Shown here in pieces: positions 5,574 to 19,629 of a stretch of DNA of 22,612 nt (the stretch's first letter is position 1; the number at the start of each line of letters is the position of its first letter). Source of the stretch: a virus. The position numbers and the translations under genes are program-made. The notes beneath the pieces are model-generated. The model saw only the letters and a list, made by a program, of their open reading frames with translations. It made no database searches and was not told the origin of the DNA. The stretch is taken from positions 1 to 22,612 of the IMG/VR virus record IMGVR_UViG_3300020185_000282; one strand, given 5' to 3'.

Positions 5574-5966
5574 ATGGGAAAGAGAGAAGGCCTAGTTTAT
5601 CTTGTAGTTACATTATGGGTCATATTAGGAGCTTTAGGCGTATTCAAAGATACTAGCCTATCGGAATTATCTGTTTACTTTGGATCATTAACTGCATATG
5701 TTGGCATATATGTTTGGTCAGAAACTAAAAAACCTTCTATAAAAACAAGCGTATTTAGAAAAGGACCTACTTCGAGAAGAGAAGCTATGATTTACATAGT
5801 AACTTTACTATGGGCGCTTGCTGGAGGATTTACAATGTGGTATAATCAAAATTTAAACGAAGTTACCATTTATTTTGTTTCTCTTTCTGGTTTTGTAACT
5901 AGTTGGATTCTAGGTGAAGTATATAAGCCTGAAGATGATATTAAGAAAAATATAACCAAAGTATAA
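5574..5966 (+). CDS. Four-helix membrane protein with internal duplication
   Basis: The 130-residue protein consists of two copies of one unit. Copy 1 (3-55) and copy 2 (68-121) each begin with a basic R-R/K-E stretch. A hydrophobic helix containing the T-L-W motif follows, then a polar N/S-L-x-E turn leading into a second helix with YF-SL/SG. Each unit is a two-helix hairpin, so about four membrane segments with short polar ends are predicted. Size and topology are holin-like, but gene position (before the neck gene and coupled to it by a TAATG overlap) does not prove a lysis role. An inner-membrane or virion membrane-interaction function is equally possible. Confidence 0.8.
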   Translation: MGKREGLVYLVVTLWVILGALGVFKDTSLSELSVYFGSLTAYVGIYVWSETKKPSIKTSVFRKGPTSRREAMIYIVTLLWALAGGFTMWYNQNLNEVTIYFVSLSGFVTSWILGEVYKPEDDIKKNITKV

Positions 5967-7999
5967 TGGTAACTGGTTACACCGCAACTGAAATTGGAGA
6001 TGTTCTAATAGCTAGGCTTAAAGAACCATATAGTGGAATTCTTAGGGTATTAGGTTGGACTATTGTCGCTGGACTTTCTACAAGTAGAACAAGAAATATT
6101 ACCCTCAATTTTACAGCAGGTTCTAATGTTGTGGCTTCATCTGCTAGTTTTTCTTTTAATATTGGTGAAAAAATTATAGTAGGTAATCAATACTTTACAG
6201 TTAATTCTCTATATGATACTATTACGGGAGAGTTTGAAATATTAGAAACTCCAACATTTAGCGGTGATTCACTAAAGGTATATGAAGAACCTAATGCAAA
6301 CAATTTGTTTGTTTATGAATATAGATGGTCTCAAAATAAAGAGGCCAACGGAGGAGAAATGTCTGAGTTTAGACCACTAAATGAAGGTACATCAAATGGA
6401 GACATCATGTCTATTAACTTTAATTCTGAGCTTCCTCTTTGGTTAGATATACGAGCTACTGTTGATCGAATGTCTGGTAACGGAGTCACTGATTCTTTAA
6501 GTATATTGAGCGTTACATACGAATTAGAAACAGAGAATGGAACAATAGAAGCATGTCCTCAATTTTGTGGAGAATGTGAAGATCCATGGGCATTTGTTGG
6601 GTGTGAAGGTATAACTGTAGAATGTGAATCTAACTTATTTAATCCATATGAACTTAAAAGGCCAGTTAACTTATATAAACAAATAACCGATGTTTCTACT
6701 TCTATTTGGGGACATGAAGTAAGGTATTTTAGAGTAGAGCCAGATACTAGAACAAAGGACGTAATATTAATGGAATATTCTTTATATAGTGTTGTAGAAG
6801 AGGGTTCAGTTAAAATTATGGTGCCAGATAATGAATTTCCAACTGAAGAATTTAACTATGACATCTTTGGAATGGGCTTTGAAGAGTTTGAAATCCATAT
6901 TACTGAAAATGAATTTAATAAAACATTTGGATTAGGACCTTCTCCAAGAAGTAGAGATTACTTATTCTTTCCATTTAACAACAGAATGTATGAAGTTTCT
7001 TCTGTTGTTTTTGCAGATGAGTTTAATAGAAGTTTGACGTATTGGAAAGTCATGCTTAAGAAATATGAAGATAGAACTTCTAGTATTCATACCGATACAA
7101 CAGTTGAACAGACCGTTGATGATTTAGTAGTAGGCGTAGAAGAAGTTTTTGGAGAAGAAATTCAAGAAGAGTTTGATAAGGTTACAAAACCTCAACAATA
7201 TAAAACAGTATTCCACGTTGTACAAGATGGAATTAGAGCAGCTATACACAAGCAGCTTAAAATAGCTGATGTTGATTTAAGAAATAGATGGACTGTGGTT
7301 TCTAGAAACTATTATGACTTAACAACAGCTACTAATAAAGTATTTAATCAAACTACTCAAAGAAATGATAATGTATTCGATGAAGCTATTATTTATAATT
7401 TAAACTCTTCTTTAACAGAGGATGCTAACATAGCATACACTGCTTGGTTTAAACCAATCTTAAACACAACATTCCAAACAGTGCATCAAACTTTGATTAA
7501 TGGATTAGATGGAGATAAGGGCATTTTAATAGAAACTTCTAGACAACAATTTAGAATTACTCTCAATGATCAGATTTATACATATGATTTTGGAAATATA
7601 GACAATTCAGAAAATCCATTTTTTGAAGCCAGTGATTCAACTTGGTATTCAATGGTTGTTAATATAAGTAATCAGTACAATGAAATGTCGGTTAACATAT
7701 ATAAACTTAAAGATGAAGTAAACGAGGGATTACCTCAAAACTCACCTAATAGATTAGAGTCTGTATTTACTGAATTAACTACCATTCCAGCTAATTTAAC
7801 ATGGGAGACTAGTAAACAGTATAATTTACAAGGAGGATACATGTGGATGACAAACATTAGAATATTTACCAAAACAATTGGATCTGATCAACATCAAAAT
7901 GTTCTTCAGCAATATGTTGTTAGAGATTCGCATATAAACATCTTAACAGATAATGCTATTCCAAGTATTATGTTAAGAAAGTATAGTTCATCTAGGTAA
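5966..7999 (+). CDS. 14: Large neck protein, gp14-like core with LamG-like C-terminal domain
   Basis: The product is 677 residues. The central part (about 240-370) follows the pattern of T4-like gp14 neck proteins: G-H-E-V-R-YF near 249, an IFGMGFEEFEIHI strand region near 300, then RSRDYLFFPFNNRMYEV (328-344) and YWKVMLKKYE (359-368). gp14 helps connect the filled head to the tail. T4 gp14 is only 256 residues. Here an N-terminal beta-rich part (1-195) and a five-Cys cluster (197, 201, 204, 213, 220) come first. A C-terminal region (about 470-640) has concanavalin/LamG-like strands (YTAWFKPI, WYSMVVNIS, MSVNIYKL). It lies directly upstream of gene 16, as gp14 nearly does in T4. The start overlaps the previous stop by one base (TAATG). 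The neck assignment is a remembered pattern match. Confidence 0.65.
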   Translation: MVTGYTATEIGDVLIARLKEPYSGILRVLGWTIVAGLSTSRTRNITLNFTAGSNVVASSASFSFNIGEKIIVGNQYFTVNSLYDTITGEFEILETPTFSGDSLKVYEEPNANNLFVYEYRWSQNKEANGGEMSEFRPLNEGTSNGDIMSINFNSELPLWLDIRATVDRMSGNGVTDSLSILSVTYELETENGTIEACPQFCGECEDPWAFVGCEGITVECESNLFNPYELKRPVNLYKQITDVSTSIWGHEVRYFRVEPDTRTKDVILMEYSLYSVVEEGSVKIMVPDNEFPTEEFNYDIFGMGFEEFEIHITENEFNKTFGLGPSPRSRDYLFFPFNNRMYEVSSVVFADEFNRSLTYWKVMLKKYEDRTSSIHTDTTVEQTVDDLVVGVEEVFGEEIQEEFDKVTKPQQYKTVFHVVQDGIRAAIHKQLKIADVDLRNRWTVVSRNYYDLTTATNKVFNQTTQRNDNVFDEAIIYNLNSSLTEDANIAYTAWFKPILNTTFQTVHQTLINGLDGDKGILIETSRQQFRITLNDQIYTYDFGNIDNSENPFFEASDSTWYSMVVNISNQYNEMSVNIYKLKDEVNEGLPQNSPNRLESVFTELTTIPANLTWETSKQYNLQGGYMWMTNIRIFTKTIGSDQHQNVLQQYVVRDSHINILTDNAIPSIMLRKYSSSR

Positions 8000-13535: not shown

Positions 13536-14099
13536 ATGGCAGGTTTACCACATTACAGAGAAGATCAAACTAGCAAAAAAAACAGGCAGTTTGAGCCAGT
13601 ACAAGCTAACCTATTTGAGGTTACTATTTTGGCACCAGACGCGGTTACTGGAGATACAGATCTTCTTCTTCAACACGTTAATTCAATCTCAGGATTAGAA
13701 GGTATTCATAGAGAAGTTGCGGCAATTGAGCAAAAATATAAGTTTGCTACCAGATCATATGCTGGTGTACCAGACGGAACAGCGCTCGACGTAACAGTTA
13801 ATTTCTCATTGAATTTAAACGATTCTAACCAAGCTTACGTTTACAAAACATTAAGAGATTGGTACAGAGCTCAATATAATCCAGAGACTGGTGAAATGGG
13901 ATTAAAGAAAGATTATACAGGAACAATTGTTATAGTTCAATTCAATAGAAAGGGAGATATCTACAGAAAGGTAACTCTTGAGGATTGCTTTATTACATCA
14001 GGACTTGGTTTTACCGGTACTTTAGATTATGGTACAGCTGACGCACAGACTCTAGAAGTATCTTGGAGATCTGACGTATTTGCTGAAGAATTAACTTAA
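13536..14099 (+). CDS. 19: Tail tube protein (gp19-like)
   Basis: This is the major tail tube subunit that stacks as hexamers inside the sheath. It has 187 residues, against 163 in T4 gp19. The pattern is standard: N-terminal FEPVQANLFEVTI strand (about 18-30), a loop followed by REVAAIEQKYKFA, a central DVTVNFSLN strand, the helix YKTLRDWYRAQYNPETGEMG (about 108-127) and C-terminal strands IVIVQFNRKGDIYRKVT, then LEVSWRSD. The gene directly follows the sheath and is closed by a strong terminator, so it ends the 16-19 block. Confidence 0.96.
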   Translation: MAGLPHYREDQTSKKNRQFEPVQANLFEVTILAPDAVTGDTDLLLQHVNSISGLEGIHREVAAIEQKYKFATRSYAGVPDGTALDVTVNFSLNLNDSNQAYVYKTLRDWYRAQYNPETGEMGLKKDYTGTIVIVQFNRKGDIYRKVTLEDCFITSGLGFTGTLDYGTADAQTLEVSWRSDVFAEELT

Positions 14100-14177: not shown

Positions 14178-14405
14178 ATGTCGAATAGAAGAGAAAAACT
14201 TACTAAAAAGTTACAAGTTCTTTTAACTGAGGAAGAGGTTAATATGGTTAATCGTATAATCTTAAATGAAGCAATAGAATCTGAAGCTAGGCCTATATCT
14301 GTAAGCGCGTTTATTAGAGATCTCATTCAACGAGAAATAAAACAAAGAACGCCACAGCAAATGTCAATAACAAGAGAGAATATTAAAAATCTTAAATCAA
14401 AATAA
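14178..14405 (+). CDS. Small ribbon-helix-helix (Arc/CopG-like) protein
   Basis: The 75-residue basic protein has the pattern of ribbon-helix-helix DNA-binding proteins. A strand (KKLQVLLT, 10-17) is followed by helix A (EEEVNMVNRIILNEA, 18-32), a turn with ISVSAFIRDLIQREI (40-54) as helix B, and a polar tail. Such proteins act as dimeric repressors or plasmid/phage regulators. It stands between the tube terminator and the gp26-type gene, with 4 bases before the latter, so it is co-expressed with a tail-assembly gene. It could be a late-stage transcriptional regulator. A structural use of the fold cannot be excluded. Confidence 0.75.
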   Translation: MSNRREKLTKKLQVLLTEEEVNMVNRIILNEAIESEARPISVSAFIRDLIQREIKQRTPQQMSITRENIKNLKSK

Positions 14406-14409
14406 CACA

Positions 14410-15384
14410 ATGAGTGATAATACAAACGAAAAAGAGCTAGAAAGAATGCTAGCTGAAAAAGAATCTCAAATTAGTAATGAGGTTACAGATGCCGATTTAA
14501 TTGAAAGTGCAATTTCAAAAGAAGGATTAGGCAATGTTGACGTATCTAAATTTGGTCCTGAAAAAGCATCAAAGTCAGATTTACACCTAGGATGGTATAA
14601 CGTCAATATGGAGGACTTACCATCTCGTGGTAGATTTTATCCAACCGATACAGAGATAAAAATTAGATCTGCAAAAGTTGCAGAAATTAGACATTTTTCT
14701 ACAATGGACGAAAACAATATTTTAGATATTGACGAAAAATTAAATTCTATAGTTCAGTCATGTACTGTTGTTTCAGCTTCTAATAGTAGAGTATCTTTTA
14801 AAGATATCTGTGAAGAAGATAGATTCTTTATTATACTTTCTATTAGAGATTTAACCTTTCCAGAACCAGAAAATGCACTAAAGGTCAATTTTACAGCTCC
14901 TAGCGGTAATACGCATGATATAGAAATCAAAAGAGATTATTTTAGATTTTTTGAAATTCCAGGTGAAATAGAAAAATATTACGATGCTTCAGCCCGCTGT
15001 TTTGTTATTAAAACAAAAACATATGGTGAGATTTATATGAAGCCGCCTTCTATTGGTATTATGCAAGAAGTTACTAAATATATTAGAGATAGACAAGAAA
15101 AAGGAATTAACATAGATCAATCTTTAATTCAGATCTTGCCATTTATTTCTACTGATTGGAGAAGCTTCAATCAAAAGAAAATCTTTGAAATGGAAGTTGA
15201 TATGAATGGTTGGGATAATAAAAAATATACACTATTATATAGATTAGCTGAGAAAATGAAGGTTGGTATTCAACCTGAAATGCAAGTTATGGTGGAGGAT
15301 GAGGAGGCCTCCGTACCTATCAACTTTCGCGACGGCATCAAATCTATTTTCATTATTCAAGATTTCTCTGGAGAACTTCTTTAA
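14410..15384 (+). CDS. 26: gp26-type baseplate hub / tail-assembly chaperone protein
   Basis: The product is 324 residues in the zero frame. After a charged helical N-terminus (1-55) comes the T4 baseplate-type domain. LPSRGRFYP (70-78) starts a conserved strand region, with IVQSCTVV, the FKDICEEDRFFIILSIRDLTF segment (about 131-150) and a C-terminal part with WDNKKYTLLY and SVPINFRDGI. T4 gp26 (208 residues) is assigned to the baseplate hub. Related proteins just upstream of a tape-measure gene serve as its chaperones. The frame ends at CTT CTT TAA, where a +1 slip would add 70 residues. The family assignment is by motif memory, and the N-terminal 55 residues are unassigned. Confidence 0.75.
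   Translation: MSDNTNEKELERMLAEKESQISNEVTDADLIESAISKEGLGNVDVSKFGPEKASKSDLHLGWYNVNMEDLPSRGRFYPTDTEIKIRSAKVAEIRHFSTMDENNILDIDEKLNSIVQSCTVVSASNSRVSFKDICEEDRFFIILSIRDLTFPEPENALKVNFTAPSGNTHDIEIKRDYFRFFEIPGEIEKYYDASARCFVIKTKTYGEIYMKPPSIGIMQEVTKYIRDRQEKGINIDQSLIQILPFISTDWRSFNQKKIFEMEVDMNGWDNKKYTLLYRLAEKMKVGIQPEMQVMVEDEEASVPINFRDGIKSIFIIQDFSGELL
15370..15384 (+). other. Candidate programmed +1 frameshift site (CTT TAA)
   Basis: The zero frame reads GGA GAA CTT CTT TAA. If tRNA-Leu on the last CTT (15379-15381) slips to TTT (15380-15382), the next codon is AAA and the ribosome continues in the frame ending at 15595. The bacterial prfB (RF2) frameshift uses the same logic (CTT before a stop, slip to TTT) with an upstream Shine-Dalgarno-like stimulator. 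Here GGAG (15370-15373) ends 5 bases before the slip codon, in a phage whose genes otherwise lack such sequences. Confidence 0.5.
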
Positions 15385-15595
15385 AACTAAGTTCTATGTT
15401 TATCTTAAACTTCACATTCAACCATCGGAGTTGGACAATATGGAATACTATGAGTTTCACTATCTAGTAAAAGATTTAGTAGATCATATTAAAGAAGAAA
15501 ATAAACAGAATGAGAAACAGAATGATGCATACAGTGCAGGTATGCCTAAAATTCCAAATATGAAGGTTCCAAATATGTCGGTTCCAAAATTATAA
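15383..15595 (+). CDS. C-terminal extension of the gp26-type protein in the +1 frame
   Basis: Entered by the proposed slip at 15379-15382, this frame adds 70 residues, giving a 394-residue fusion. The added part is clearly protein-like: KTKFYVYLKLHIQPSELD, then MEYYEFHYLVKDL, a charged helix (HIKEENKQNEKQN) and a tail with the repeat PNMKVPNMSVP. The MEYYE... helix resembles C-terminal parts of T4-like tail chaperones. The frame is also open upstream from 15263, with ATGs at 15263, 15299 and 15440, so an independent small protein (110, 98 or 51 residues) is the rival reading. The KTKFYVYLKLH part precedes the 15440 ATG, which argues against the shortest version. A terminator follows directly. 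Confidence 0.6.
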   Translation, partial: KTKFYVYLKLHIQPSELDNMEYYEFHYLVKDLVDHIKEENKQNEKQNDAYSAGMPKIPNMKVPNMSVPKL

Positions 15596-15596
15596 T

Positions 15597-15625
15597 AAGA
15601 TAGGGGCAATAGCCCCTATCTTTTT
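15597..15625 (+). terminator. Rho-independent terminator
   Basis: An 11-bp perfect stem (AAGATAGGGGC with GCCCCTATCTT) has an AATA loop and ends in TTTTT. It closes the RHH/gp26-type unit two bases after the stop of the shifted frame, and a late-type promoter motif begins two bases after the T tract. Confidence 0.92.
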
Positions 15626-15674: not shown

Positions 15675-18600
15675 ATGACAGAAAAGCAATTTCAAGCAAT
15701 CTTAAGTCCTATTTCTAGGTTAGAAGCTGTTTCAGAACAAAATTCTGAAAAACTTTCTAGTATTGAAATGTTAACTATAGACATTAAATCTTTACAATCT
15801 GATACAGTTGCTGAGCTTAAACAACAGACAACTTTATTGAGCGATATAAAGTCTATGATCAAAGAAAGTAGCAAAGGGGGCGCAGGTGAATCTAAAGAGA
15901 TAGAATCATCTACATTTAAACCGATGTCAGTTAAAGATACTGGTTTAGCCGCATTTATGATGGTTAGTTTATCTGCTGCAATTGTAGCGTCAGCCGGACT
16001 ATTTACATTAATACCTAAAGTTAGTTTAGGTCAATTAGGAACTGCGGTTGCTATATCAGCCACATTCGCTCTTGTTGCTCCTAAGTTTGTAGAAGTTATG
16101 AAAACATTAAGTGGCGTAGAAACTAAAGACGGCGAAAATACAGAATTTAATCCGTTTGATGCTCAAACTATGTTTAATTTAGTAGGAGGTTCTTTATTAC
16201 TTATGGTTGGTTTAGCTGCTGCTATTACAGCGGCTAGTTGGGTTATGCAACTTATTATGCCTGTTTCTCCATTACAATTGTTAACAGCTATTTTAATTGG
16301 AGCAGGTTTAGCAGCCGCTAGTTTTGCTTATGTTAAAATACTAGAAGCATTAGAAGATCGCGACATAAACGATATAAAAAATGCTGGAATAGCAATGGTT
16401 GTTATAGCTGGAGCGATTGCAGTTGCTAGTTTGATATTACAATTAGTAATACCGGTTAGTTTAGATAAAGTCGGGACTATTTTATTAGTAGGTATTGCAT
16501 TAATAGGAGGAGCTTACGCAATGGCTCAAATATTAAAAGAAATAGAAGGTAAAACATTAAAAGATATAGGACTAGCAGCACTTGCTATGTTAGCTATAGC
16601 GCCTGCTATGGTAGCAGCTAGTCATATTTTACAATATATCAACCCAATAACTGATCCATATATTTATTTAACAGTATTTTTAATAGGCTTATCAATGGTA
16701 TCTGCTGCATATAGCTTTAAGTTATTAATAGATGCCGTATCTGGTAAAAGTACTAAAGATTTAGTAGCAGCTGGAGCTGCGATGATAGTTATAGCTGGTG
16801 CAATATGGGCAACTGCATGGATATTTACTCAACTGCCACCAGTAAATGATATGGTAGCTCCTCCTTGGAAATGGACATTAAAAACTGGCTTAGCTTTAGT
16901 TATTTTTGGTTTAGCATTTGCTGGATTAATAAAAGCAGTTAAAGGACAAAGTGTTCCTGATTTATTAAAAGCCGCTGCTGCGATGGTTGTTATTTCTATA
17001 GCAATATTAGCGGTTGCGTGGATATTTCAAGTTTTACCTGATTCATTTAAAACAGTTCCAGTAGAATGGACTTTAAAAACTGGCTTAGCTATACTAATAT
17101 TTTCTGTATCTATAGCAGTTGTAGGCTTACTAACTAAAAGTTTAGGAGTTCCAACAATGGCAATGGGAGCATTAGGTTCGGTTATCGTTGCTCTTGGAAT
17201 ATTAGGAGTTGCTTGGATATTTAGTGCATTACCCTCTGCTGAATTAACAGCTCCACCGATTAGTTGGACTTTATCTGTTGCTTTAGCTTTAGTTTTATTT
17301 AGTATACCTATAGCAATTATAGGGGCTATAGCAATGTCAGGTGCAGGAGCTGTTGCTATATTGGCAGGGGTTGTCGGTATGATAGTTATAGCATCTGGTA
17401 TATGGGCAGTAGCTTGGATATTTAGTAAAATGCCAGATATTAGCGGAGTTGCTAAAATGTTAACAACTGCGCTTTTGGCTCCTGTTAATGGCATAGTTGA
17501 TGTTCTAAAAAGACTAAAAGACGAAGTAGGAGTTGAAAACTTATTACCACTAGCTGGCGGCATAGTTGCTATAGCAGGATCATTGTTAGTATTAGCCGCG
17601 GCTTCTGCTGGTGCAGCTGCTGCAGGATTAGGCGCATCTTTAATGAATGCAGGTAAAGCTTTTGTTGATTTTATATCAGGCTCAGAAACCAGAGGACCTC
17701 TTGATACTCTTTCTGAGATAGTAAATATGGCACCTCAAATAGCTAAAGTAGCTGGACCAATTAAAATACTTGGAGAAGCGTTTATGTTTTTACAAGGTGG
17801 TCAAAATATGGAAGTGCTTGTTAGATTCTTTGAGATTATGCAAAAGGATCCTAAAATGAGCAATGTTAAGGCTATTCAAGATATATCAAATCCTATGGTA
17901 AAAATGATATCAGCTTTATCTAATATACCAGTAGATGCCCCACAAAGACTTCAAGATCTATTTTCAAAAGTAAGTTGGTCTTCAATTATGGCACCTGTTG
18001 CTTCTGTTGCAAGTTCTATGGCTATATTAGCTCTTAATGCAAGTTTAGCTGGTAATGGAGTTACATTAGTTGCGTCTGGTATGGAAAGAATGGTTAAGGC
18101 TTTAAACAGTTTAACCAAAGATTCTATAGAAAGTATCATAAAATTATTTAATGATGTCAATTGGCCAATATTAGTAGATCCTATTGATGCCATATCCATA
18201 TCTATTAAAAGAATGTCAGATGGTGCTATAGAAACAGGAGAGGGTATGAAAATGGCTGCAAATGCTTTACAATTAATGTCATCTATTCCGGCTGAAATAT
18301 TAGCTGAAATAGCTAAAGTATTTAACGCATTGGCTAAAGATCCTTTAACTACGCAAGGGGAAGCAATGGGTTTAATATCCAGATCTATTGTTACAATATC
18401 AGCTTCTATGTTAACTATGAGATCTGATGCGTTTGTTCGTATGTTTGAAGTCATGTCATCTAGTAGTTCAGCTATTGCTACTATGTCTAAACCGATGAAA
18501 ACAATTGCTGGAGCATTAGATCAAATGGGAAGAATAAATGTAGACGGTATAGAATGGGCCCATAAAATGGCTAGACAATTGGCTAGGTCATCATTTAATT

Positions 18601-19052
18601 CACAAGCAACTGCCCTTGAAAAGATGGCAAAATCATACGGTGATATATCTAAGTCTAGTAATTCTATGAATGTTGAAGCTATTAATGCGACATCTGACAT
18701 GTTTAAGGCTCTTGCATATTTATATCAAAATGGTAAAAGAAATGCTATAGAAGAATTAGGTGATAAGCTCATAGACGCTGTACAAGAATTAGCAAGTATG
18801 ATAGCTGATTTTGATAATACAGTAGGTGAGCAAAATCAAGGTAGTAAAAGCGTAGGAGAAGCTCTTGCTAAGGCTGCTGATAATTTAGTTAATGTCGTTG
18901 GTCTAGGAGGTAATTCATCAAGCGGCGCTTCTTCACCTGCATCAGGTCAAGATCTTGCATTTGCGATGCAAGAAATGGTTGATCTTCTACAAACAGGTCA
19001 AGCTAAAATCACTATTACAGACATAGATCAATTAGCAGCTGATAAAATTTGA
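15675..19052 (+). CDS. Probable tail tape measure protein with tandem hydrophobic repeats
   Basis: The product is 1125 residues. It is called tape measure from its length, its place after the gp26-type chaperone and its composition: helical, Ala/Ile/Val-rich and almost without Cys or His. Residues 1-80 are a coiled coil. Residues about 90-660 are strongly hydrophobic and built from about eight tandem units of 60-67 residues, each with two membrane-like helices. The signatures are A-x-A-M-x-V-I-A, A-W-I-F-x-x-L-P and WTLKTGLA (exact at 400-407 and 465-472). Residues 680-1060 form a soluble helical region with many Met and Ser. The end has a Ser/Gly-rich linker (NSSSGASSPASG). T4 gp29 has 590 residues and is not so hydrophobic, so this protein may also form a DNA-entry channel. 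A multi-pass membrane protein unrelated to the tail is a weaker alternative. Confidence 0.75.
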   Translation: MTEKQFQAILSPISRLEAVSEQNSEKLSSIEMLTIDIKSLQSDTVAELKQQTTLLSDIKSMIKESSKGGAGESKEIESSTFKPMSVKDTGLAAFMMVSLSAAIVASAGLFTLIPKVSLGQLGTAVAISATFALVAPKFVEVMKTLSGVETKDGENTEFNPFDAQTMFNLVGGSLLLMVGLAAAITAASWVMQLIMPVSPLQLLTAILIGAGLAAASFAYVKILEALEDRDINDIKNAGIAMVVIAGAIAVASLILQLVIPVSLDKVGTILLVGIALIGGAYAMAQILKEIEGKTLKDIGLAALAMLAIAPAMVAASHILQYINPITDPYIYLTVFLIGLSMVSAAYSFKLLIDAVSGKSTKDLVAAGAAMIVIAGAIWATAWIFTQLPPVNDMVAPPWKWTLKTGLALVIFGLAFAGLIKAVKGQSVPDLLKAAAAMVVISIAILAVAWIFQVLPDSFKTVPVEWTLKTGLAILIFSVSIAVVGLLTKSLGVPTMAMGALGSVIVALGILGVAWIFSALPSAELTAPPISWTLSVALALVLFSIPIAIIGAIAMSGAGAVAILAGVVGMIVIASGIWAVAWIFSKMPDISGVAKMLTTALLAPVNGIVDVLKRLKDEVGVENLLPLAGGIVAIAGSLLVLAAASAGAAAAGLGASLMNAGKAFVDFISGSETRGPLDTLSEIVNMAPQIAKVAGPIKILGEAFMFLQGGQNMEVLVRFFEIMQKDPKMSNVKAIQDISNPMVKMISALSNIPVDAPQRLQDLFSKVSWSSIMAPVASVASSMAILALNASLAGNGVTLVASGMERMVKALNSLTKDSIESIIKLFNDVNWPILVDPIDAISISIKRMSDGAIETGEGMKMAANALQLMSSIPAEILAEIAKVFNALAKDPLTTQGEAMGLISRSIVTISASMLTMRSDAFVRMFEVMSSSSSAIATMSKPMKTIAGALDQMGRINVDGIEWAHKMARQLARSSFNSQATALEKMAKSYGDISKSSNSMNVEAINATSDMFKALAYLYQNGKRNAIEELGDKLIDAVQELASMIADFDNTVGEQNQGSKSVGEALAKAADNLVNVVGLGGNSSSGASSPASGQDLAFAMQEMVDLLQTGQAKITITDIDQLAADKI
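16386..17546 (+). repeat. Tandem protein repeats (six clear units) inside the tape-measure gene
   Basis: Six units cover residues 238-300, 301-366, 367-432, 433-498, 499-563 and 564-624. Each starts with an A-x-x-M/V-x-V-I-A helix, passes a proline turn and ends in a second hydrophobic helix with a short polar link. Units 3-5 share the W-T-L core after the proline turn. Two earlier, more diverged units lie at about 91-150 and 168-237. At DNA level the units have diverged, apart from short matches such as AAAACTGGCTTAGCT (near 16881 and 17076, 195 bases apart). Confidence 0.75.
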
Positions 19053-19102: not shown

Positions 19103-19182
19103 ACGGGCGTGGCGGAATTGGTAGACGCGCTAGTTTTAGGCACTAGTTCCTAGGAGTGAGAGTTCGAGTCTCTCCGCCCGTA
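19103..19182 (+). tRNA. tRNA-Leu (anticodon TAG)
   Basis: The acceptor stem is ACGGGCG (19103-19109) with CGCCCGT (19175-19181), discriminator A. The anticodon stem CTAGT/ACTAG encloses loop TTTAGGC, with anticodon TAG at 19137-19139. A T-arm GAGAG-TTCGAGT-CTCTC and a class II (11-base) variable region are present. CCA is not encoded. It reads CTA and related Leu codons. Confidence 0.96.
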
Positions 19183-19196
19183 CTAAATTATAATAT

Positions 19197-19270
19197 GCGC
19201 CCATAGCTCAACTGGATAGAGCATCGCCCTTCTAAGGCGAGGGTTCGGGGTTCGAGTCCCTGTGGGCGTA
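19197..19270 (+). tRNA. tRNA-Arg (anticodon TCT)
   Basis: The acceptor stem is GCGCCCA (19197-19203) with TGGGCGT (19263-19269, one G-T pair), discriminator A. The anticodon stem TCGCC/GGCGA encloses loop CTTCTAA, with anticodon TCT at 19231-19233. It reads AGA, the dominant Arg codon in the genes of this window. CCA is not encoded. Confidence 0.96.
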
Positions 19271-19289
19271 CTAAAAAAATAAAATTAAG

Positions 19290-19532
19290 ATGAAAGCCGC
19301 TTCGTACAAAGTAGAAATAGTTGAGTACAGATTAGAGGAGGAGTTGATCGCGTATAAGATAGTTGAAAAACACTATTTTTTAGGTATACGCACATACACA
19401 GAAGAACATTCAAAGATGTTTAGAGATTTAGAGTATACTAAATCTATTGCTAAAAAGATATCAAAAAGAATTTACAGAGAATATTCAAGAGATGTTTTAA
19501 GTAGATCAATAGTTCATAAGATACATAGTTAA
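19290..19532 (+). CDS. Hypothetical protein between tRNA genes (80 aa)
   Basis: An 80-residue, strongly basic protein with helical Lys/Arg-rich segments (KSIAKKISKRIYREYSRD, about 51-68) follows a beta-like N-terminus (YKVEIVEYRLEEELIAYKIVEKHYF). It fills the space between tRNA-Arg and tRNA-Ser with 19- and 9-base gaps and has no Shine-Dalgarno. The family is not recognised. The charge suggests nucleic-acid contact, which is only inference. Confidence 0.65.
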   Translation: MKAASYKVEIVEYRLEEELIAYKIVEKHYFLGIRTYTEEHSKMFRDLEYTKSIAKKISKRIYREYSRDVLSRSIVHKIHS

Positions 19533-19541
19533 CAAACAAAC

Positions 19542-19629
19542 GGAGAGGTGGCAGAGTGGTCGAATGCACCGGTCTTGAAAACCGGCGTACCTCACGGTAC
19601 CGGGGGTTCGAATCCCTCCCTCTCCGCCA
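19542..19629 (+). tRNA. tRNA-Ser (anticodon TGA), CCA encoded
   Basis: The acceptor stem is GGAGAGG (19542-19548) with CCTCTCC (19619-19625), discriminator G and an encoded CCA (19627-19629). The anticodon stem CCGGT/ACCGG encloses loop CTTGAAA, with TGA at 19576-19578. A long class II variable arm (GTACC...GGTAC) is typical of Ser. It reads TCA, and is the only one of the three with CCA encoded. Confidence 0.97.

Follow-up and report, generated by a model that had tools for sequence, protein, structure and literature searches.

The gene at positions 14410 to 15595 on the plus strand of IMG/VR record IMGVR_UViG_3300020185_000282 (positions 1 to 22,612; this whole stretch of 22,612 nucleotides [nt] is termed the window) was identified as a tail assembly chaperone of the T4 gp26/gp51 type. 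It is proposed, with a probability of about 0.85, that the gene yields a short and a long chaperone by a +1 slip at UUU_CGC. The zero frame terminates at a TAA at 15382 to 15384, directly preceded by CTT CTT, and the +1 frame contains no stop from 15263 until the stop codon at 15593 to 15595; computed translation with one base skipped gives a product of 394 amino acids (aa). An earlier note on this DNA had described these two frames and products of 324 and 394 aa, and both descriptions were found to be correct; its placement of the shift at the zero-frame stop was not upheld. The proposal draws on sequence evidence, namely the two frames, dual coding that begins at UUU, a conserved UUU_C and GGAGG, and the protein family, from which slippage is deduced.

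Most ribosomes would read 14410 to 15384 and release the 324-aa short chaperone. A fraction would slip at UUU_CGC (15325 to 15330), where, by analogy with influenza PA-X, the tRNA-Phe in the peptidyl (P) site would re-pair from UUU to UUC while the aminoacyl (A) site waits on the rare CGC codon. These shifted ribosomes would end at 15595 and release a 394-aa long form carrying an 88-residue helical C-terminal extension, and the GGAGG located 17 nt upstream may stimulate the event.

Conservation of the two frames in relatives

Relatives were found by tblastn with both protein parts, and scans of IMG/VR added three groups, giving a total of 64 distinct loci. The tblastn relatives were jumbo or huge phages, comprising LR756500, Lak phages of Prevotella, PAU, PTm1, pT24, MaF61, MA9V, and several genomes of 630 to 735 kb, and their recorded hosts were mostly Bacteroidetes. 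Conservation of both frames, which the earlier note had named as a check, was observed throughout: the downstream part was in the +1 frame and open in 64/64 distinct loci, many of them less than 30% identical, and L013, an independent contig from this phage type, showed the identical arrangement. Since all relatives examined keep an open and conserved +1 frame, these comparisons can be taken to confirm that the +1 relation did not arise by chance.

Differences within the +1 frame were distributed over codon positions 1, 2, and 3 as 0.28/0.12/0.60 (two clades). The synonymous-rate test provided the strong test for +1 coding. In the window's clade, synonymous differences in the zero frame remained at the gene average until the TTT at -57 relative to the stop (15325 in the window) and in the megaphage clade until the TTT at -63. 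From TTT to the stop they fell to 0.141 and 0.143 of expected, respectively, compared with 0.78 and 0.51 for the lowest upstream segment of equal length. This constraint from TTT onward, seen independently in the two clades, indicates that dual coding starts at TTT. Support from a codon-resampling test of +1-frame similarity was modest, with 37/2000 and 4/2000 simulations reaching the observed value. Coding selection on both frames of the overlap and a conserved frame relation, which mark G/GT-type chaperones, were thus both found, and a +1 programmed frameshift is very probably real.

In public annotation, the end of the +1 part appears as separate small hypothetical proteins (PAU gp94 in L002, PTm1 ORF-023 in L003) and the transframe protein is unannotated; in the records inspected, the long form is currently either divided or missing. 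In Lak-B5 (L007), an in-frame TAG within the +1 extension has to be decoded as Gln (code 15), so that a frameshift would be combined with stop reassignment in this phage. The extension of Lak-C1 (L009) is open without reassignment, and the Lak extensions are longer than those of other clades.

Position and composition of the proposed shift site

Several observations place the shift at TTT rather than at the stop. The codons just 5' of TTT were free to vary (CCN, ATC/ATT; CAA/CAG), and in L001, L029, and L011 the +1 frame contains a stop one to a few codons before TTT, so that ribosomes could not have entered the +1 frame any earlier there. The residues S, L, F, and L of LFSLFKISL were invariant in the +1 frame across clades, and all are encoded 5' of the zero-frame stop. 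When the +1 part was read from UUU_C, it matched phrog_634 ("baseplate hub assembly catalyst") with an E value of 8.5e-5 over residues 8 to 68; in a profile search with the +1 part 3' of the stop alone, phrog_634 was not reached. Similarly, alignment by hhalign to the long form of cyanophages gave an E value of 8.4e-10 with the shift at UUU_C and 1.1e-8 with the shift at the stop. Together, the start of the constraint, the upstream +1 stops, the conserved +1 residues, and the variable stop context argue for a shift at TTT.

In-frame UUU_C was present in 63/64 loci, against a background of 0.0055 per codon, or about 0.09 expected per stretch. Over these 63 sites, the A-site codon was CCC in 41, CGC in 9, CGT in 4, CAA in 4, CCT in 2, and CGA, CCA, and CTA in 1 each; CCC, CGC, CGT, or CGA thus accounted for 55/63, with CCT or CCA in 3, CAA in 4, and CTA in 1. 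CGC and CGT make up 4 to 7% of Arg codons in these AT-rich genomes, and CCC makes up 2 to 5% of Pro codons (1.8 to 3.8% in the megaphage clade). At 19103 to 19629, the window carries phage genes for three tRNAs, Leu(TAG), Arg(TCT), and Ser(TGA), of which Arg(TCT) is consistent with the heavy use of AGA, which leaves CGN codons rare.

The position of UUU_C at the 5' end of the dual-coding region, followed by a CGN or otherwise slow A-site codon, corresponds to the class exemplified by influenza PA-X. In PA-X, +1 slippage at UCC_UUU_CGU was proved by mass spectrometry, and its authors predicted that UUU_C sites followed by slow A-site codons form a class, leaving open the use of such motifs in cellular genes (PMC3498833). 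The window's UUU_CGC fits this class and not that of prfB: in both PA-X and the window, the P-site slip would occur on UUU_C before a rare CGN Arg codon, the shift is +1, and the site was deduced from dual-coding constraint. The PA-X system differs in that it involves a eukaryotic ribosome and an RNA virus and has no GGAGG element, and its exit-site codon is UCC rather than the AAC, ACA, CAA, or CAG seen here. The present locus would place in bacterial viruses a UUU_C +1 site of the PA-X type, which until now has been described from viruses of eukaryotes. For the window type, the predicted tryptic junction peptide is ...VPINFATASNLFSLFK, containing ...PINF-ATASNLFSLFK. The peptide ISLENFFK is predicted in the long form only if the shift lies 5' of the stop, whereas a shift at the stop would give SIFIIQDFSGELLK.

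The spacing between GGAGG and UUU was exactly 17 nt in 57/63 loci, including those of the window's clade, LR756500, L046, L049, PAU, Lak-C1, the megaphages, and the 735-kb genome. The exceptions were L003, L005, and L007, which have no GGAGG, and L029, L004, and L006, in which the spacing differs. The codon 5' of GAG specifies Glu, Gly, Arg, or Ala, depending on the clade, yet its third base is always G, which indicates selection on the nucleotides, and the GAG GAG codons were synonymously invariant (two clades). On this basis, GGAGG is regarded as a candidate stimulator of the +1 shift. A stimulatory RNA structure 3' of the site was unsupported in the window (z of -0.28 versus shuffles); in L008 alone, the 3' region folded better than shuffles (z of -2.85).

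The earlier note had proposed a prfB-like +1 shift at the zero-frame end, in which the CUU before TAA would re-pair on UUU; a GGAG lies a few nucleotides upstream. CTT CTT TAA does not vary within the window's clade and occurs also in L001, L046, and L049, but the conservation of CTT-TAA that the note had anticipated among relatives extended no further. Other clades stop in GAA TAA, AAA TAA, AAG TAA, GAG TAA, TCT TAA, TTT TAA, ATT TAA, TTA TAA, or TTA TGA, and their +1 continuation is unchanged; contexts such as GAA TAA, AAG TAA, GAG TAA, and TTA TGA are not slippery. Conservation of CTTCTTTAA within the clade follows from dual coding (LL* in the zero frame, NFFK in the +1 frame), whereas a shift at CTT_TAA leaves unexplained both the constraint from 57 to 63 nt upstream, which in the window begins at TTT 15325, and the conservation of SLF..L before the stop. 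The GGAG of that proposal does exist in the window's ...TCT GGA GAA CTT CTT TAA, but it is lost in L025 to L028 (GGA to CAA or GAA), and the conserved element is instead the GGAGG at 15303 to 15307. The frameshift of prfB, the gene for release factor 2 (RF2), is likewise +1 with a Shine-Dalgarno (SD)-like sequence upstream, but the slip takes place at CUU_UGA with a stop codon in the A site and the SD sequence 3 nt away, whereas here the A site holds a sense codon and GGAGG lies 17 nt away. Since the stop context is variable and +1 coding starts 57 to 63 nt upstream, the prfB-like stop-codon shift was rejected as very improbable.

It is also improbable that the +1 shift occurs within the same few codons on another codon (CCC_N in megaphages and L012, or the next codon), with mixed chemistry between clades. 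UUU CCC is found in 41 loci, L012 has TAC CCC ATC and no UUU_C, and CCC is known to be prone to +1 shifts (Listeria phage PSA; PMC5009743). However, UUU_C is the sole element common to 63/64 loci, and the window's clade has no CCC at that place. Absence of any frameshift, with the downstream frame forming a separate small gene with its own start, e.g., ATG 15440, was judged highly improbable. A GGAG is located 10 nt 5' of this ATG, small open reading frames (ORFs) have been annotated there (PAU gp94, PTm1 ORF-023), and in cyanophages an ATG for gp51 is conserved at +5 relative to the end of gp26. Against this, position +58 has no start codon in L014, L015, and L019 and a TTG in L016 and L017, and no +1-frame start was found upstream of +28 in L001 or near the site in L011. 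Moreover, any conserved start lies well 3' of the point at which the conserved +1 block and the synonymous constraint set in, and in T4 gp51 both parts are in one protein. Independent initiation at ATG 15440 or at other +1 starts was rejected because the starts are not conserved; a conserved start of the downstream frame, used for separate expression, was what the earlier note had named as grounds for abandoning a frameshift. The note's other concern, an assembly or sequencing error with one base missing or extra, could be suggested by the homopolymers near the stop (TTT, AAAA). It was excluded because isolates and unrelated metagenomes share the frame relation in 64 distinct loci, the independent contig L013 among them, and its probability is vanishingly small.

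Some observations weigh against slippage at UUU_C aided by GGAGG in this gene family. L012 has CCC_A in place of UUU_C, the in-frame UUU_C is displaced in PTm1 (-75) and MA9V (-36), and the codon after UUU is the common codon CAA in four loci (among L001, Lak, and PTm1). The 17-nt spacing of GGAGG departs from both the prfB (+1) and the dnaX (-1) models; in dnaX, the SD-like spacing is about 10 nt. The window protein itself had no Pfam match, and the +1 long forms compared directly with T4 gp51 alone by hhalign gave no significant result. Finally, ribosomes of Bacteroidia mostly ignore SD sequences, though they use one in prfB (PMC8710568). The conserved GGAGG at a fixed 17 nt is accordingly unexplained in phages whose presumed hosts hardly use SD pairing.

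Relation to T4 gp26 and gp51 and to other short and long chaperones

The assignment to the T4 gp26-type chaperones made in the earlier note was supported by relatives and by fold. PF12322, the T4 gp26/gp51 family, matched the zero-frame products of PAU (2.7e-9), LR756500 (7.6e-8), and LR756502 (4.6e-6), all above the curated cut-off, and 5/27 members of alignment A3 (best 1.4e-7); membership in the PF12322/phrog_150 family was thus established through relatives. Separate AlphaFold2 (AF2) models were built from plain translations of the short form and of the +1 part. The short-form model (predicted local distance difference test [pLDDT] of 77) matched "Baseplate hub assembly protein, bacteriophage T4-like" in BFVD by Foldseek with an E value of 4.6e-8, with 45 matches at E <= 0.001, demonstrating fold similarity; the fold search against PDB gave no match. 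The model of the +1 part was helical (pLDDT of 72). The LR756500 +1 part matched phrog_634 at 4.3e-5, and the match of the window's +1 part to the same family is that of a gp51-type C-terminal extension.

T4 gp26 and gp51 were found to be paralogues (hhalign E value of 5.7e-17), with gp51 about 47 residues longer at the C terminus. In P-SSM2, S-PM2, HTVC008M, and KVP40, the gp51 part, annotated as a small gene 51, overlaps the end of gp26 in the -1 frame, and U_UUU_UUC or U_UUU_UUU directly precedes the gp26 stop. This arrangement was retained in 68/68 distinct IMG/VR relatives of P-SSM2; in the P-SSM2 relatives displayed, a GGAGG lies about 10 nt upstream of this slippery site. Expression of gp26/51 in cyanophages, pelagiphages, and KVP40 by a -1 programmed frameshift is therefore probable from these sequences. 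The ATG at +5 is conserved in the cyanophage group and may serve for separate gp51 initiation. In P-SSM2 (L118) the site is at 2167 to 2196, and it was also seen in L119, L121, L122, and L137 to L216.

The +1 long form aligned nearly end to end with the cyanophage -1 long form (hhalign Prob of 96.5, E value of 8.4e-10), which in turn aligned with T4 gp51 (E value of 2.4e-15); the link to T4 gp51 was made through the cyanophage long form, as the direct comparison was not significant. T4 gp51 thus provides, through this link, the homologue with both parts in one frame that the earlier note had regarded as decisive. From these alignments, the +1 extension is read as the equivalent of the T4 gp51 C terminus. 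The locus shares with the cyanophages, pelagiphages, and KVP40 the family and a gp51 part that overlaps the gp26 end in another frame, but their shift would be -1 at a slippery site before the stop, whereas here it would be +1. With T4 it shares the family and the short/long relation, but T4 has two separate genes, in contrast to one gene with a frameshift here.

The short and long products would be counterparts of T4 gp26 and gp51, and they probably correspond in role to lambda gpG and gpGT. As in lambda, a short and a C-terminally extended chaperone would come from one gene just 5' of the tape-measure gene, the extension being added by a programmed frameshift in a minority of ribosomes; unlike in lambda, where the shift is -1, it would be +1 at UUU_C, in a chaperone of the PF12322 family. 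Both chaperone forms, the short in large and the long in small numbers, would attach to the tape measure or hub, where the extension would serve to recruit tube or hub subunits.

The G-T frameshift has been described as widely conserved "except T4," and the known +1 cases in tailed viruses are archaeal HSTV-2 (G-T) and Listeria PSA, A118, and A500 (capsid, tail shaft) (PMC5009743). T4 gp51 is essential and its function has been given as unknown (PMC3004832). No description of a gp26/gp51 frameshift was found in open-licence literature. The comparisons suggest that T4-type phages probably do make a G/GT-like pair, by a +1 shift, a -1 shift, or, in T4, two genes. T4, the listed exception to the frameshifted-chaperone rule, would then have paralogous genes 26 and 51 where its relatives keep the frameshift, which suggests what T4 gp51 is. 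More broadly, it appears fairly likely that a previously undescribed bacterial recoding cassette, GGAGG-N17-UUU_C(rare codon), serves huge and jumbo phages of Bacteroidetes in producing, by +1 slippage, the short and long tail chaperones of the gp26/gp51 type, and that the T4 superfamily retains the short/long pair by a +1 shift, a -1 shift, or gene duplication (26/51).

Features of the locus

Features of the chaperone gene in the window and of the T4 locus used for comparison
Feature	Position	Strand	Basis
Zero-frame gene, short form (324 aa), T4 gp26/gp51-type tail (baseplate hub) assembly chaperone	14410-15384	+	PF12322 matches in relatives; AF2 model versus BFVD
GGAGG, Shine-Dalgarno-like, 17 nt 5' of UUU; candidate stimulatory or pausing element	15303-15307	+	Fixed spacing, synonymous invariance
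Putative shift site UUU_C, zero frame AAC UUU CGC GAC; C15328 would be skipped and decoding resumed at GCG 15329	15325-15328	+	Conserved UUU_C, synonymous collapse
Dual-coding overlap: zero frame ...FRDGIKSIFIIQDFSGELL*, +1 frame ...ATASNLFSLFKISLENFFK	15325-15384	+	Synonymous-difference test
Zero-frame A-site codon CGC, rare Arg codon (4.1% of Arg codons in window)	15328-15330	+	Codon counts
+1-frame extension, 88 residues ATASNLFSLFKISLENFFKTKFY...VPKL plus stop TAA; C-terminal part of predicted long form	15329-15595	+	phrog_634 match, cross-clade conservation, helical AF2 model
CTT CTT TAA, zero-frame terminator, shift site proposed earlier; best read as ordinary stop	15376-15384	+	Not conserved beyond window's clade and nearest relatives
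T4 locus L034: paralogous genes 26 and 51	5803-6429 and 6480-7229	minus and plus, respectively	hhalign

The chaperone gene is preceded by a tail tube gene (13536 to 14099) and followed by an ORF at 15675 to 19052 (1125 residues), which is presumed to encode the tape measure from its size and position, with no profile match. Two overlapping frames between tail tube and putative tape measure, the arrangement of G/GT-type chaperones, were thus found at this locus. A strong hairpin, AGATAGGGGCAATAGCCCCTATCTTTTT, resembling an intrinsic terminator, is present at 15597 to 15622, directly 3' of the +1 stop and between the chaperone and putative tape-measure genes. Between the tail tube and chaperone genes, a 75-aa ORF at 14178 to 14405 showed weak likeness to phage transcriptional regulators (phrog_536, E value of 0.022).
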